DNA from: an uncultured Colwellia sp.
GTDB lineage: Bacteria > Pseudomonadota > Gammaproteobacteria > Enterobacterales > Alteromonadaceae
Direction of reading: 5' to 3'
Length of the DNA: 42,639 nucleotides
Assembly: GCA_913058405.1 (NCBI GenBank)
Contig: CAJXRC010000013.1
Coordinates: 1 to 42,639 of the forward strand
Shown here: positions 2,504 through 13,840 of the stretch, piece after piece
Numbering within the stretch: the first letter of the stretch is position 1
Layout: each line of letters opens with the position of its first letter
Notes under the pieces: model-generated
The model's input: the letters and a program-made list of their open reading frames with translations, nothing else
What the model was told of the DNA's origin: nothing
The model's database searches: none
Translations under genes and position numbers: made by a program

Positions 2504-3985
2504 TTATTTTGCACTAGCAATTTTTTTCATGTCGGTCATGTAACCACGAAGTTCTTTACCAATTACTTCAACACCATGGTTACGGATTTCTTCGTTAACT
2601 TCGATTAAACGTGCGTTATCAACATTATTTGAAGATTCTTTTAAGCCTTCGCCTAATTGCTCTAATGTTAAGTTAGACGCGTATTCTTCAAGCAACGGTA
2701 CTGCAGCATGAGTAAATAAGTAATTACCGTACTCAGCAGTATCAGAAATAACAACATTCATTTCGTATAATTTGTTACGCGCGATACAGTTAGCAATCAA
2801 TGGAGTCTCATGAAGTGACTCATAGTATGCAGATGCATTGATGATACCTGAATCAACCATGGCATCAAAAGCAAGTTCAACACCGGCTTTAATCATAGCA
2901 ACAACAAAGATACCTTTGTCGTAGTATTCTTGCTCAGTAATTTCAGTTTCACAATCAGCTGCTTTCTCAAAAGAAGTTTCTGCTGTTTCTGCACGCCATG
3001 TTAATAAGTTAACATCGTCGTTAGCCCAATCAGCCATCATAGTTTCAGAGAAGCGACCTTCAATGATATCGTCCATATGTTTTTGGAATAAAGGACGTAA
3101 AATTTCTTTTAATTCTACTGACATATCAAATGCTAAAATTTTAGCTGGGTTTGATAAACGGTCCATCATGTTTGTGATGCCGCCATGTTTAAGACCTTCA
3201 GTAGTAGTCTCTAAACCGTATTGTAATAATTTACGTGCGTAAGCTGCATCCATACCTTGAGCAAGTAGTTGCTTATGACCTAAAACCGCAGCCGTTTGCA
3301 ACATACCACAAAGAATTGTTTGCTCGCCCATTAAGTCAGACTTAACTTCAGCGATGAAAGAAGACTCAAGAACACCTGCTCTATCACCACCAGTAGCACT
3401 TGCGTAAGCTTTAGCAATCGCTAAACCGTTACCTTGTGGATCATTTTCTGGGTGAACAGCGATAAGTGTTGGAACACCAAAACCACGTTTGTATTCTTCA
3501 CGTACTTCAGTGCCTGGACACTTAGGTGCAACCATAACTACCGTGATATCAGAACGAATCTGCATGCCTTCTTCAACGATATTGAAACCATGTGAGTAAG
3601 CTAAGGTTGCGCCCTGCTTCATCAATGGCATTACTGCAGTAACTGCAGAAGTATGTTGTTTATCAGGCGTTAAGTTTAAAACTAAATCGGCTTGTGGAAT
3701 TAAATCTGCGTAGCTACCTACTGTGAAACCATTTTCAGTAGCCCACTGCCATGATTGACGTTTTTCGCTAATCGCTGCATCACGCAATGTATAAGAAATA
3801 TTTAAACCTGAATCACGCATGTTTAAACCTTGGTTTAAACCTTGAGCACCACAACCGACAATAACAATGTTCCAATCTTTAATGAAGTTACAACCATCGT
3901 TGAACTCTTCACGTTTCATAAAACGACATTTGCCTAATTGACCTAATTTTTCACGTAAGCTTAAAGTATTAAAATAATTGCTCAT
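2504..3985 (-). CDS. ilvC: Ketol-acid reductoisomerase (class II, long form)
   Basis: [28 protein letters not shown]...[29 protein letters not shown]; start at 3985 preferred over the 4108 ORF start, giving 493 aa. Confidence 0.97.
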
Positions 3986-4034
3986 GGGGATCCTCTGAAT
4001 TTGGTTCTTTGTTAAGTCAGTTTTTCTGACAATG

Positions 4035-4081
4035 CTTTTTGCAATGAAACCATCATACGCTAGCCATCTTATTGCAAAAAG
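4035..4081. promoter_or_regulatory. Distal inverted repeat in the ilvC/ilvY divergent promoter, candidate IlvY site
   Basis: CTTTTTGCAAT (4035-4045) and its exact reverse complement ATTGCAAAAAG (4071-4081). Confidence 0.55.
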
Positions 4082-4098
4082 TGATATATTCGCACCAC

Positions 4099-4121
4099 TA
4101 CGTTGCATTTATTGCAACGTA
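4099..4121. promoter_or_regulatory. Candidate IlvY (LysR-type) operator
   Basis: TACGTTGCA-TTTAT-TGCAACGTA, perfect 9-bp arms containing a T-N11-A LysR box, between ilvC and ilvY. Confidence 0.75.
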
Positions 4122-4154
4122 AAATCACTAGTATCGATTCAGGGGTAATAAATT

Positions 4155-5033
4155 ATGGATCAAAAAGCATTGTCTATGTTTGCCCATTTGAGCCAAACAT
4201 TACATTTCGGTAAAACCGCTTTAGCACATCACATTAGTCCGTCTACGCTAAGTAGAGCAATACAACGACTCGAAGACGAGGTTGGTGGCGAATTATTACA
4301 TCGTGACAATCGAACAGTGGTACTAACGGATGTTGGTAAGAAATTCAAAATTTACGCCGAGAACCAGCTAGAACAGTGGCACAACTTCAAGCAGTCACTT
4401 GACCATAAGCAGGCTGCTTTGATGGGTAAACTTCATATTTACTGTTCCGTTACTGCCGCCTATAGTCACCTACCCCCTTTGCTGGAGCGTTTTCGGGCTC
4501 AACATCCTCTGGTAGAAATTATGTTAACCACAGGGGATGCAGCTGACGCCCTTGAACAAGTACAAAATCAATCTGTCGATTTTGCAATCGCTGCAGCTCC
4601 TGAAACCCTGCCGCGTAGCGTTTACTTTCACCATCTCGATACAATAGCACTCACGGTTATTGCGCCAACAATGACTTGTAAAGTGCAACAACAATTGAGC
4701 CAAAAGGTCTTAACTTGGTCTGATATTCCAATAATTTTGCCTGAACATGGCGCCGCTCGAAAAAGATTTGAGCTTTGGTATCGTAAAAAACAGCAAGGAA
4801 AACCAACCATTTACGCGACAGTCTCCGGCCATGAAGCGCTAGTCAGTATGGTTGCTTTAGGGTGTGGTGTTGGCATTGTGCCGCAAGTGGTGGTGGATAA
4901 TAGCCCTGTGAAAGACAGGGTCAGCAATTTGGAAAACATCGGTGATATTGAACCCTTTGAGTTAGGCGTCTGTTGTTTGAATCAAGCAAAAGCACAGCCG
5001 CTGATCAAAGCTTTTTTTTCGTCGATAGTGTGA
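4155..5033 (+). CDS. ilvY: LysR-family activator IlvY
   Basis: 292 aa LTTR; N-terminal HTH (FGKTALAHHISPSTLSRAIQRLEDEVGGELLHRDNRTVVLTDVG); divergent from ilvC. Confidence 0.93.
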   Translation: MDQKALSMFAHLSQTLHFGKTALAHHISPSTLSRAIQRLEDEVGGELLHRDNRTVVLTDVGKKFKIYAENQLEQWHNFKQSLDHKQAALMGKLHIYCSVTAAYSHLPPLLERFRAQHPLVEIMLTTGDAADALEQVQNQSVDFAIAAAPETLPRSVYFHHLDTIALTVIAPTMTCKVQQQLSQKVLTWSDIPIILPEHGAARKRFELWYRKKQQGKPTIYATVSGHEALVSMVALGCGVGIVPQVVVDNSPVKDRVSNLENIGDIEPFELGVCCLNQAKAQPLIKAFFSSIV

Positions 5034-6677: not shown

Positions 6678-6707
6678 TTGCACATTGGATTAGAGCTATG
6701 GTACTAA
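6678..6707 (+). promoter_or_regulatory. Candidate ilv operon promoter
   Basis: TTGCAC - 18 nt - TACTAA with upstream TGG, about 75 nt before the leader ATG. Confidence 0.4.
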
Positions 6708-6783: not shown

Positions 6784-6858
6784 ATGCACAAATTTAACTC
6801 AATTATTATAAACCTTCTCGTCGTGGTGATTATTAAATCAACCCGAGGGTTTTGTTGA
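6784..6858 (+). CDS. ilvL: ilv leader peptide MHKFNSIIINLLVVVIIKSTRGFC
   Basis: 24-codon ORF with III-N-LLVVVII run (10 Ile/Leu/Val codons), just upstream of a hairpin with T tract and ilvG. Confidence 0.9.
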   Translation: MHKFNSIIINLLVVVIIKSTRGFC

Positions 6859-6930
6859 GCTAAAGAAAAGCATTCAATCAAATAACAAACCCTCGCTTCG
6901 CAAGAACCGAGGGTTTTCTTTTTAGCTTTT
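6844..6930 (+). promoter_or_regulatory. ilvGMEDA transcription attenuator (antiterminator/terminator)
   Basis: CGAGGGTTT (6844-6852), AAACCCTCG (6887-6895), CGAGGGTTT (6908-6916), then a T-rich tract. Confidence 0.88.
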
Positions 6931-7009
6931 TTTAATCGATTTCCATCAAAGATGAAAATGCTGAAAAAATAGACATTAACAATATAACAATATAACAATT
7001 GGAATCATC

Positions 7010-8674
7010 ATGACCAAGAGTAAAACGCTAACAGGCGGCGCATTATTATTTGAAGTGTTACAAGAGCACGGTGTACAGCACGTATTTGGTTACCCCGGCG
7101 GTGCCATCATGCCAATCTATGACGCTTTATACGATAGCGATGTAAAACACTTTCTATGCCGACATGAACAAGGGGCAGCATTTTCTGCTGTTGGCTATGC
7201 TCGTGCTGCTGGTACTGTTGGTGTCTGTTTAGCAACCTCAGGTCCAGGGGCAACAAATTTGATCACCGGCCTTGCCGATGCACTTGCCGATTCGATTCCT
7301 GTTGTCGCAATTACAGGACAAGTTCCGACTGCTGCAATGGGTAGTGATGCGTTCCAAGAAATTGATATTTTTGGTCTATCGCTTGCCTGTACTAAGCACT
7401 CTTTCCAAGTAACTGATATTAATGAGCTTGAAAAAGTTTTACATCAAGCCTTTGAAATTGCTTTAGAAGGTCGTCATGGACCTGTACTTGTTGATATTCC
7501 AAAAGATGTTCAACTAGCTGAAGTCACTCAGCGCTTAGATAAACTATCTCATTTAAAGAATAAGGTAAAATTACCCCTTGCTGATATCAGCAAAGCTCTT
7601 GATTTACTAACGCATGCTAAACAACCTATTTTATATGTAGGTGGTGGTGTTGGTATGGCAAACGCTGTAGAAGAAGTACGCGATTTTGCCGAAAAAACAG
7701 GTATGCCTAGTGTTTCTACATTAAAAGGATTAGGTGCCATTAATCCGGATAATGAAAACCACCTTGGCATGTTAGGTATGCACGGCACAAAAGCCGCTAA
7801 CCTTGCAGTACAGGAAAGTGATTTGTTAGTGGTAGTTGGGGCTCGTTTTGATGACCGAGTGACTGGCAAGCTAGATGAATTTGCTCCGAATGCTAAAGTA
7901 ATTCATTTCGATATTGATACCGCTGAGATTAATAAACGCCGTGACGCCGACGCCGCAATTTTAGGTGATTTAAAAGGCAATTTACCGTTATTGACCACTG
8001 AATTAAATATAGCTGATTGGCAACAAAAGTTAAAGCAAATGAACACTGATTTTGCATGGCGATATGATCACCCTGGCGATAATATTTTTGCCCCTGCCGT
8101 ATTAAAAACAGTCAGCGACCTTATGCCGAGCAATACCTGTGTAACCACTGATGTTGGTCAACACCAAATGTGGGCTGCACAGCATATGACATTTGATGAT
8201 CCAAGCAACTTTTTGACCAGTGGCGGTATGGGAACCATGGGCTTTGGTTTACCTGCGGCAATAGGTGCACAAATATCACGTCCTCATGATACTGTGATAG
8301 CGGTATCTGGCGATGGTTCAATCATGATGAACGTGCAAGAATTGGCAACGATTAAACGCTACCAGATTCCAGTAAAAGTGGTACTTATTGATAACGCAAA
8401 ACTAGGTATGGTTCGTCAATGGCAAGACCTGTTTTTTGATGGTCGTCTAAGTGAAACTGATTTATCAGACAACCCTGACTTCGTTATGTTAGCCACAGCG
8501 TTTGACATAAAATCAAAGTTAATCACTAAAAAGAGTGAAGTTAAAGCTGCCGTTGAAGAAATGTTAGATCATGATGGTCCTTACTTATTACAAGTAAAAA
8601 TTGATGCCGCAGAAAATGTTTGGCCGTTAGTACCACCAAATACAGCAAACGATAAAATGATGGAGAGTGTTTAA
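7010..8674 (+). CDS. ilvG: Acetolactate synthase large subunit
   Basis: 554 aa ThDP enzyme; [32 protein letters not shown]; intact. Confidence 0.97.
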
Positions 8675-8675
8675 T

Positions 8676-8954
8676 ATGAATTCTATGACGCTAAATAAGT
8701 ATCAATTGATCATTATGGCTGATGATAAACAAGTAGTGCTAGAGCGAATTTTACAAGTAACTCGATATCGCGGCTTTTTAATCAATGGTATGAATGCTGA
8801 AGTAAATACGGGTAACAATGTTGCGACAATCACTATGAGTGTCAGTAGCGAACGTCCTATCTCTTTGCTTATTGATCAAATAAACAAATTGATCGACATC
8901 AAGGGTGTCAAAGTAGACAATAGTGACGTGCAAATAAAACAACATAGCGCGTAA
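8676..8954 (+). CDS. ilvM: Acetolactate synthase small regulatory subunit
   Basis: Small ACT-like protein (LERILQVTRYRGFLINGMNAEV) directly after ilvG; ATG at 8676 preferred. Confidence 0.9.
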   Translation: MNSMTLNKYQLIIMADDKQVVLERILQVTRYRGFLINGMNAEVNTGNNVATITMSVSSERPISLLIDQINKLIDIKGVKVDNSDVQIKQHSA

Positions 8955-9073: not shown

Positions 9074-10000
9074 ATGGCTAAAGTAAATGCAGAATATATT
9101 TGGTTCAACGGTGAACTTATGCCGTGGCAAAACGCTACTGTACACGTAATGAGTCATGCTCTTCATTACGGCTCATCTGTTTTTGAAGGCATTCGTGCAT
9201 ATGAAACACATAAAGGTACATGTATTTTCCGCTTGGAAGAGCATATCAAACGTTTATTTGATTCAGCAAAAATTTACCGTATGAATATTCCATACACTCA
9301 AGAAGAAGTTATCCAAGCATGTAAAGATGCTGTCGTGAAAAACGATTTAAAATCGGCATATCTTCGTCCATTAGCCTTTTTAGGTGATATCGGTATGGGT
9401 CTTCGTCCGCCAACTGACGCTAAAGCTGATCTTATGATTGCCGCATTTAGTTGGGAAGCATATTTAGGTGCTGATGCTGTTGAAAATGGTGTAGAAGTAG
9501 GTGTTTCTAGTTGGAATCGTTTAGCGCCAAACACTATGCCTACTGCTGCAAAAGCAGGTGGTAACTACTTGTCTTCTCAGCTTATTTCATCAGAAGCTGC
9601 TCGCCATGGTTATGCTGAAGGCGTTGCACTTGATGTAAATAACATGGTAAGTGAAGGTGCAGGTCAAAACTTATTTTTAGTTCGTAACAATGTTATTTTT
9701 ACACCGCCAGGAACAGCCTCTATTTTACAAGGCTTAACACGAGATGCGGTATTCTTCTTAGCTAAGCAATTAGGCTACGAAGTACGTGAAGAGTCAATTG
9801 CTCGTGAAGCTTTATATCTTGCTGACGAATTCTTTATGTGTGGAACGGCAACTGAAGTAGTACCAGTGAAATCAGTAGATGGTCTGCCTGTAGGTACCGG
9901 TTCTCGTGGTCCTATAACAAAAGCTATTCAGGAAGCCTTTTTTGGTATTTTTGATGGGACGACTGAAGTGCCAGATGGCTGGTTAGATCCTGTAAAATAA
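9074..10000 (+). CDS. ilvE: Branched-chain amino acid aminotransferase
   Basis: 308 aa; HALHYGSSVFEGIRAYET, PLP motif AGGNYLSSQL, EGAGQNLFLV. Confidence 0.97.
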   Translation: MAKVNAEYIWFNGELMPWQNATVHVMSHALHYGSSVFEGIRAYETHKGTCIFRLEEHIKRLFDSAKIYRMNIPYTQEEVIQACKDAVVKNDLKSAYLRPLAFLGDIGMGLRPPTDAKADLMIAAFSWEAYLGADAVENGVEVGVSSWNRLAPNTMPTAAKAGGNYLSSQLISSEAARHGYAEGVALDVNNMVSEGAGQNLFLVRNNVIFTPPGTASILQGLTRDAVFFLAKQLGYEVREESIAREALYLADEFFMCGTATEVVPVKSVDGLPVGTGSRGPITKAIQEAFFGIFDGTTEVPDGWLDPVK

Positions 10001-10235: not shown

Positions 10236-12098
10236 ATGCCTAAATTAAGATCTGCAACTTCAACTCAAGGCCGTAATATGGCTGGTGCTCGTGCATTATG
10301 GCGCGCTACAGGCATGACAGACGGTGATTTTGGAAAGCCAATCGTTGCGGTAGTCAACTCTTTCACGCAATTTGTGCCTGGTCATGTACATTTGAAAGAC
10401 ATGGGACAATTAGTTGCCGGCGCGATTGAAGAAGCAGGCGGTGTCGCTAAAGAATTTAATACCATTGCTGTTGATGACGGCATTGCCATGGGTCATGCCG
10501 GTATGCTTTACAGCTTACCTTCACGTGATTTGATCGCCGATTCAGTAGAATACATGGTTAATGCCCATTGCGCTGATGCCATGGTATGTATTTCTAACTG
10601 TGACAAAATCACTCCAGGTATGTTGATGGCAGCAATGCGCTTAAACATTCCGGTCATTTTTGTTTCTGGTGGCCCAATGGAAGCAGGTAAAACTAAGCTT
10701 TCTGACCAAATTATCAAATTAGATTTAGTTGACGCCATGATTCAAGGTGCTGATCCTTTAGTAAGTGACGAGCAATCTGATCAAGTTGAGCGTTCAGCCT
10801 GTCCAACGTGTGGTTCATGTTCTGGTATGTTCACTGCTAACTCAATGAACTGTTTAGCTGAAGCATTAGGTTTAGCCTTACCAGGTAACGGCTCTATGTT
10901 GGCAACTCATGCGGATAGAGAGAAATTATTTTTAGATGCAGGTAAACAGATTGTTGAATTAACTAAACGTTATTACCAAGATAACGATGAGTCTGCACTA
11001 CCTCGTAATATTGCCAACAAAGATTCATTTTCAAACGCTATGTGTTTAGATATTGCTATGGGTGGTTCAACTAATACCATCTTACATTTACTAGCAACGG
11101 CACAAGAAGCCGAGATAGATTACACCATGGCAGACATGGATAAATTATCACGCATAGTGCCACAGTTATGTAAAGTTGCGCCATCAACACCTGAGTATCA
11201 CATGGAAGATGTGCATCGCGCCGGTGGTGTAATTTCAATATTAGGTGAGTTATCACGCGCTGGTTTATTAAAAACGGATGTACCTAATGTTTTAGGTACT
11301 ACGTTGGCCGATGTTATCGCTAAATACGACATCACTATTACAGATGATGAAGACGTTAAAAAATTCTATCGTGCCGGACCTGCAGGTATTCGTACCACTA
11401 AAGCATTTAGCCAAGACTGTCGTTGGGATACATTAGATGATGACAGAGAAAATGGTTGTATTCGTAACCTTGAAAATGCCTTTTCATTAGAAGGTGGCTT
11501 AGCGGTACTTTCAGGCAATATTGCCGTAGACGGTTGTGTTGTTAAAACTGCCGGTGTAAGTGACGACAACTTAGTATTCACTGGCCCTGCACATATTTTT
11601 GAAAGCCAAGATGATGCAGTAGCTGGCGTGTTAGACGGAAAAGTGGTTGCTGGTGAAGTAGTTGTTATTCGTTATGAAGGTCCTAAAGGCGGACCAGGCA
11701 TGCAAGAAATGCTTTATCCAACCACTTACTTAAAGTCTATGGGTCTAGGTAAGGCCTGTGCCTTATTAACTGATGGTCGTTTCTCTGGTGGTACTTCTGG
11801 TTTATCCATTGGTCATGTTTCTCCTGAAGCAGCTGACGGCGGCACAATTGCCTTAGTTGAACAAGGCGACATCATTCATATTGATATCCCGACACGTGAG
11901 ATCACCTTGCAAGTATCTGAAGCTGAACTTGAAACGCGTCGTGCCGCAATGGAAGCTAAAGGTAAAAATGCTTGGAAACCTGCTGATCGTGTTCGTCCAA
12001 TTAGCTACGCACTTAAAAACTACGCAATGTTAGCCACTAGTGCTGATAAAGGTGCTGTGCGTAACCGTGACTTATTAGATGGTTTAGTTGATAAGTAA
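10236..12098 (+). CDS. ilvD: Dihydroxy-acid dehydratase
   Basis: 620 aa; [40 protein letters not shown]. Confidence 0.98.
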
Positions 12099-12155: not shown

Positions 12156-12231
12156 CGTCATTCCCGAGTTTTCTAATCGGGAATCTAGCTTTCAAATAAT
12201 GGATGCTCGATATAATCAACTCGAGCATGAC
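12156..12231. repeat. REP/BIME-like double-hairpin element between ilvD and ilvA
   Basis: ATTCCCGA/TCGGGAAT (12160-12184) and ATGCTCGA/TCGAGCAT (12203-12228), bounded by GTCAT...ATGAC. Confidence 0.65.
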
Positions 12232-12286
12232 TATTTCATGGTTAGCTGCATTTTTTCAAGTGATTGACAGTAATTTAGGCAAAATC

Positions 12287-13840
12287 ATGACAGAAACACT
12301 CAAGCAAGTATCACCCCAAGAGCCATTAGATTACCTACGTCGTATTCTACTTGCCCCTATTTATGATCTCGCGGTTGAAACCGAATTGACGGCTTGCAAC
12401 AAATTGTCCTCTCGTTTAAATAATCACATTTATTTAAAACGTGAAGATCAACAACCCGTACATTCGTTTAAATTACGTGGCGCTTATAACAAACTCAATA
12501 GTTTAACTGAAGAGCAATGCATTCATGGTGTTATCGCTGCTTCTGCTGGTAATCATGCTCAAGGTTTAGCACTAGCGGCTAAAAAGCTGGGCATTAATGC
12601 AACTATCGTTATGCCCAAAACTACTCCAGATATTAAAGTGGACAATGTAAGACGTTTTGGTGGTGAAGTACGATTAGTTGGCAATAGTTTCAATGAAGCT
12701 CAAGCCGCTTCAATCGAATATGCCAAAGCAGAAAGTAAAACCCTTGTTCATCCCTTTGATGATGTTGAAGTCATTATTGGCCAAGGTACGGTAGCTAAAG
12801 AATTGTTACAACAATTGCCCCAAGCTGATGTGGTGTTTATACCTGTTGGCGGTGGTGGACTTCTTGCGGGTATGGCCGTTTATTTAAAACAGCTAAATCC
12901 TAGAACTAAAATTATCGGTGTAGAAGCTGAAGATTCAGCCTGTTTAAAAGCCGCACTTGAAGCAGGAGAGCCCGTTGATTTAACTCAAGTAGGTTTGTTT
13001 GCCGATGGCGTTGCCGTTAAACGTATTGGTGAAAATACTTTTGGTTTGATTCAAGAGTTTTGTGATGAAGTGATCACGGTTTCAACCGATGAAATTTGTG
13101 CATCTATCAAAGACATCTTCGAAGAAACACGTGTTATTGCTGAGCCTGCTGGTGCATTATCTTTGGCCGGCTTACAAAAGTATTGTCTGACTAGCAAAGG
13201 TGGTGAATCTTTAGCAGCAATACTTTCAGGCGCAAACATGAACTTTCATACCTTGCGTTACGTGTCAGAACGCTGTGAATTAGGTGAAAAGAAAGAAGCG
13301 ATATTAGCGGTTACTATTCCCGAAGAAAAAGGTAGTTTTAAACGTTTTTGTCAATCCATAGGCAACCGTGCCATTACCGAGTTTAACTATCGTTATTCTG
13401 GTAAACCTAGTGCTGAAATTTTTGTCGGTGTTCGTCTTGGCGGCAGTGTAGAAGAACGTCAAGAGTTACTGCAAGGACTAGAAAGCGCAAATTATCAAGT
13501 GAGAGATTTTACTGATAATGAATTAGCTAAATTGCACGTTCGCTACATGATTGGCGGAAAAACTCCTCATTCAGCGAAGAACGGTAACGATGAGCGACTC
13601 TTTAGTTTTGAGTTTCCTGAACATCCGGGAGCGCTAGAAAAATTCTTAGCCGCAATGGGCGAATACTGGAATATCACCCTATTTCATTATCGTAACCATG
13701 GCGCAGCATTTGGTCAGGTACTTGCTGGTTTTGATCTTGATAAAAATCAGCAAAACGAATTTTTCCAACACCTTGATGACCTTGGTTATCAATGGGCAGA
13801 AGAAACCGACAACCTCGCTTATCAAACCTTTTTGAATTAA
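12287..13840 (+). CDS. ilvA: Biosynthetic threonine ammonia-lyase
   Basis: YLKREDQQPVHSFKLRGAYNK, SAGNHAQGLALAAK, C-terminal regulatory domain; start MTETLKQV at 12287 preferred over ORF start 12203, which lies in the repeat. Confidence 0.96.
   Translation: MTETLKQVSPQEPLDYLRRILLAPIYDLAVETELTACNKLSSRLNNHIYLKREDQQPVHSFKLRGAYNKLNSLTEEQCIHGVIAASAGNHAQGLALAAKKLGINATIVMPKTTPDIKVDNVRRFGGEVRLVGNSFNEAQAASIEYAKAESKTLVHPFDDVEVIIGQGTVAKELLQQLPQADVVFIPVGGGGLLAGMAVYLKQLNPRTKIIGVEAEDSACLKAALEAGEPVDLTQVGLFADGVAVKRIGENTFGLIQEFCDEVITVSTDEICASIKDIFEETRVIAEPAGALSLAGLQKYCLTSKGGESLAAILSGANMNFHTLRYVSERCELGEKKEAILAVTIPEEKGSFKRFCQSIGNRAITEFNYRYSGKPSAEIFVGVRLGGSVEERQELLQGLESANYQVRDFTDNELAKLHVRYMIGGKTPHSAKNGNDERLFSFEFPEHPGALEKFLAAMGEYWNITLFHYRNHGAAFGQVLAGFDLDKNQQNEFFQHLDDLGYQWAEETDNLAYQTFLN

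Follow-up and report, generated by a model that had tools for sequence, protein, structure and literature searches.

Leader peptides with terminators have been described upstream of branched-chain amino acid (BCAA) genes across Gram-negative species, the leaders being putative (PMC6123439), and ilvG of Shewanella is listed among the known leader-peptide attenuators (PMC2659441). Both sources cite the founding comparative paper, Vitreschak et al. (2004), for predicted ilvG attenuators in Shewanella and other gammaproteobacteria; as cited there, these combine a leader peptide with a terminator/antiterminator upstream of ilvG, the arrangement also found herein. The ilvB-OMG and ilvB-II motif RNAs and the three-hairpin attenuator of Corynebacterium glutamicum ilvBNC follow the same logic, in which a BCAA upstream ORF controls a terminator, an antiterminator, and an anti-antiterminator, but they differ from the present case in gene (ilvB), lineage, and sequence (PMC10272879, PMC11857589).

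The closest described system is ilvL of the ilvXGMEDA operon of Escherichia coli K-12 (NC_000913.3). Its segment 2, TGCGGGG, lies inside the leader ORF (nt 67–73 of 99) and pairs with CCCCGCA at the 5′ arm of the terminator, while GTGGTGGTGATTATTATCCCACC forms a hairpin over the Val/Ile codons. In Rfam, the whole of this attenuator (L051 in our set) is spanned by RF02744 (Rev39_5p_UTR), a 5′ UTR family of soft-rot enterobacteria whose name is silent on the matter; RF02744 is the enteric version of the ilvL attenuator, scoring 157 bits on E. coli ilvL and 105 bits on one relative in our set (L040).

The window, that is, the whole stretch of 42,639 nucleotides analyzed from an uncultured Colwellia sp. 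(contig CAJXRC010000013.1), most probably carries an ilvL-type ribosome-mediated transcription attenuator of ilvGMEDA with the usual four segments (probability of roughly 0.93). The operon and its synteny are those of E. coli. On the forward strand lie ilvG (acetolactate synthase large subunit, 7010–8674; Pfam TPP_enzyme N/M/C), ilvM (ACT-domain small subunit, 8667–8954, a 95-aa ORF from GTG 8667, with an ATG at 8676; ACT_5), ilvE (class IV aminotransferase, 9074–10000; Aminotran_4), ilvD (dihydroxy-acid dehydratase, 10236–12098; ILVD_EDD), and ilvA (threonine dehydratase, 12203–13840; PALP and Thr_dehydrat_C). Upstream of the leader, and divergent from it in both organisms, is the Mg-chelatase gene yifB/comM; since the order in E. 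coli K-12 is yifB/ilvL–ilvX–ilvG, the window contains the orthologous regulatory site. A candidate promoter, TTGCAC-18-TACTAA, may lie at 6678–6707 of the same strand, with an aligned −35 element (TTGCAC, 6678–6683) and, after an 18-nt spacer, a −10 element (TACTAA, 6702–6707) just preceded by TGG; both the −35 element and TATGGTACTAAT, at the −10 element, are conserved across most of the genus. Adjoining the ilvGMEDA cluster, at 2504–5033, are ilvC (KARI, reverse strand) and a divergent LysR-type regulator resembling ilvY.

The leader ORF (6784–6858, forward strand) lies directly upstream of ilvG, starts with ATG at 6784, ends with TGA at 6856–6858, and encodes the 24-codon peptide MHKFNSIIINLLVVVIIKSTRGFC, against 32 codons in E. 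coli ilvL. Ile, Leu, and Val account for 10 of the 24 codons. Like the E. coli leader, it has a V-V-V-I-I run (6820–6834), which here belongs to the control codons CTT CTC GTC GTG GTG ATT ATT (LLVVVII, 6814–6834), and CTCGTCGT is identical in all 36 members of the genus.

Segment 2, CGAGGGTTT (6844–6852), is formed by codons R21-G22-F23 and can act both as the 5′ arm of the antiterminator and as the 3′ arm of a protector stem. Its exact complement, segment 3 (AAACCCTCG, 6887–6895), can pair either with segment 2 or with segment 4 (6908–6916), the 3′ arm of the terminator, after which the intrinsic terminator ends in a U-rich tail, TCTTTTTAGCTTTTT (6917–6931). The leader, both copies of the 9-mer, the complement, and the tail had been placed by an earlier sequence-only reading, correctly to the base, and the mutually exclusive hairpins that it proposed do fold: the 3:4 terminator (6887–6916), a 9-bp stem enclosing a small one of 3 bp, reaches −16.4 kcal/mol and runs into TCTTTTTAGCTTTTTTT, and the alternative 2:3 antiterminator (6844–6900), with its exact 9-bp complementarity, reaches −15.1 kcal/mol. 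Besides those at 6844 and 6908, the window has no further copy of the repeated 9-mer, and it has a single copy of the complement, at 6887. The arrangement of 9-mer, complement, and same 9-mer within 110 nt was found a single time in the 42.6 kb, whereas 30 dinucleotide shuffles of the full window gave no instance of it (an 8-mer version was found four times in these shuffles), and it is not due to chance. The duplication itself is explained by segments 2 and 4 both pairing with segment 3 in any such attenuator. Both this terminator and that of E. coli have a 12-nt top region and a U tract; the 9-bp segments are AT-richer than the G-rich segments of E. coli ilvL, and the spacer between segments 2 and 3 is shorter (34 versus 51 nt).

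The same reading took the element for a pared-down attenuator of three segments that differs from the enteric scheme, on the grounds that no separate 1:2 protector was evident and that the antiterminator strand lay in coding sequence. Neither difference holds. The strand is inside the ORF in E. coli as well, so that such a location is normal for ilvGMEDA and marks no special compact design. As for the protector, the minimum-energy fold of 6784–6852 is a hairpin of −11.5 kcal/mol that ties up segment 2. In it, AAACCT (6810–6815), TCG (6821–6823), and GGTGATT (6825–6831), within the Asn-Leu-Leu-Val-Val-Val-Ile codons, pair with 6836–6852, the whole of segment 2 included, which defines segment 1 (6810–6831, forward strand) over the same Val/Ile codons as the E. 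coli hairpin. With the two proposed differences gone, what is left is a four-segment ilvL attenuator.

Codon choice also argues for this stem. The probability that segment 2 of the window is paired upstream is 0.96, versus 0.43 in synonymous recodings, only 0.5% of 200 of which are equally high (codon-usage background: the eight window genes and each genome's own ilvG). Across 34 leaders the mean probability is 0.90 versus 0.52 and the mean minimum free energy −13.6 versus −8.7 kcal/mol, and upstream pairing exceeds the synonymous mean in every one of the 34. The codons CTC and GTC, which make up 4% of the Leu and 10% of the Val codons of the eight window genes, are invariant in all 36 genus members, as expected if they are paired with segment 2. 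The TCG:CG[A/G] and GTG:CA pairs are retained in nearly all of 61 distinct family sequences, in which no double-sided compensations were found. Because the pairs are mostly invariant or changed on one side, to G-U only, covariation support for the 1:2 stem is weak, and its evidence is conservation and codon choice. Judged from these sequences, the whole genus has a 1:2 stem in which the Leu/Val control codons take part, and this stem is stronger than synonymous codon use would predict.

A true three-segment attenuator, in which the switch is set only by the ribosome covering segment 2 and no functional 1:2 stem takes part, is the best of the alternatives, and we consider it unlikely. The missing compensations would suit it, as would the full-length nascent fold in the absence of a ribosome, in which 2:3 slightly outcompetes upstream pairing of segment 2 at equilibrium once segment 3 exists (0.56 versus 0.35). 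It leaves unaccounted for, however, a stem that the leader, folded as far as segment 2, adopts at minimum energy, that is favored by codon choice in 34 of 34 leaders, and that holds uncommon codons fixed. Not being dominant once segment 3 has been made, the protector must act kinetically. There is likewise a slim chance that the protector has a marginal role in this AT-rich genus and that regulation is mainly by direct ribosome masking of segment 2, giving three-segment behavior in an element of four-segment enteric descent.

In the four-segment attenuator, as sequence and comparison show, the control codons hold segment 1 and the last codons of the leader segment 2, segment 3 comes after the stop, and segment 4 is the distal arm of the terminator. 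Concerning ribosome footprints, termination, and the response to starvation, we infer the following course. When charged Leu, Val, or Ile tRNA is short, a ribosome would stall at codons 11–17 and occupy segment 1, leaving segment 2 free to pair with segment 3, and transcription would run on into ilvG. A ribosome reaching the stop codon would instead cover segment 2, and after its release, or when the leader is untranslated, the 1:2 protector could hold that segment; whether covered or held, it would let 3:4 form, with termination at about 6917–6931. The nascent RNA left uncovered by a ribosome was folded on the assumption that the leading edge of the ribosome is 14 or 16 nt beyond the P-site codon's first base. 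The modeled probability of 2:3 is about 0.9 with the A site at codons 7–16 and 0.66–0.90 at codon 17; at codon 18 it is 0.57 or 0.01, and for codon 19 and all later positions through the stop it is about 0. The modeled switch point, codon 17/18, is thus the end of the VVVII run, which is consistent with the earlier proposal that a stall in this run frees the upstream copy of the 9-mer and that a ribosome at the stop covers it.

Relatives bear out the arrangement. The ilvG upstream regions of 135 genomes from the genus, family, and order were compared together with that of E. coli (136 in total), and a BCAA-rich leader is present in 132, most often closing with a Val/Ile run and then S-P/S-R-G; no recognizable BCAA leader was seen in the other four (L039, L050, L113, and L134), which appear to be leader losses or rearrangements. 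Of 130 analyzable cases, 128 have the best antiterminator strand within the leader ORF, although in about eight of these the best ungapped duplex is the adjacent GTTTGTTG/CAACAAAC pairing and not the G-rich core. Within the genus, CGAGGGTTT is exact in 31 of 36 members, with CGGGGG in three, TGAGGG in one, and GAGGGGTT in one. The leader and the layout of segments 2, 3, and 4, whose conservation the sequence-only reading had made a test of itself, thus recur in about 130 genomes.

That the hairpin simply terminates a transcript coming from upstream, with a short ORF beside it by coincidence, is scarcely credible: a good intrinsic terminator is indeed present, but yifB/comM, the gene upstream, is encoded on the opposite strand, and in these genomes the terminator is conserved together with the leader peptide, the control codons, and segment 2. 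A riboswitch or protein-binding attenuator, whose ORF would not be the sensor, has nothing specific in its favor beyond the lack of any Rfam family match, and is just as improbable, since the conserved element is a BCAA-rich peptide whose control run in most genomes precedes segment 2 by about 8–12 nt, and the genus alignment showed no conserved non-coding region resembling an aptamer.

Segments 2 and 3, moreover, covary between lineages, as far as their aligned sequences indicate. Their core is CGAGG/CCTCG in 21 distinct combinations and CGGGG/CCCCG in 51, and the pairs found among relatives include TGCGGGG/CCCCGCA, GCGCGGGG/CCCCGCGC, GCTCGGGG/CCCCGAGC, GTCGGGG/CCCCGAC, and TACGGGGG/CCCCCGTA. 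In permutation tests uncorrected for phylogeny, Watson–Crick pairs at position +1 beyond the core occur in 64 of 84 distinct combinations versus 56.5 expected by re-pairing (P = 0.0004) and at +2 in 19 of 84 versus 10.4 (reached in 0 of 5000 shuffles), with no excess at +3 in the same 84 combinations. Conserved leaders, this covariation, and the modeled switch together support ribosome-mediated Ile/Val/Leu attenuation of ilvGMEDA, as first proposed for the locus, and the comparison gives high confidence in the mechanism of what appears to be a well-conserved, ordinary ilvL attenuator. A scan of the window at Rfam gathering thresholds matched no family; RF02744 had no match in the window, and none in L001 at E ≤ 1. 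An ilvL attenuator with covarying segments, conserved across the whole order, is therefore outside the reach of the current RF02744 model.

Some relatives depart from the common form. An in-frame TAG in the ilvG matches of three of them was rejected as an artifact, being located just before the start codon where the match had overrun the start upstream. In L086–L089, L032, L093, L101, and L110, a distance of about 260–370 nt separates the end of the leader from ilvG, with a long spacer between terminator and gene. In the close relative L003 (genome G031; 98% IlvG identity), CGA of the leader has become TGA, a stop five codons upstream of the genus norm. There, a U-G pair preserves the pairing of segment 2, which a ribosome at the displaced stop would continue to cover, making L003 a natural variant suited to testing the geometry of masking.
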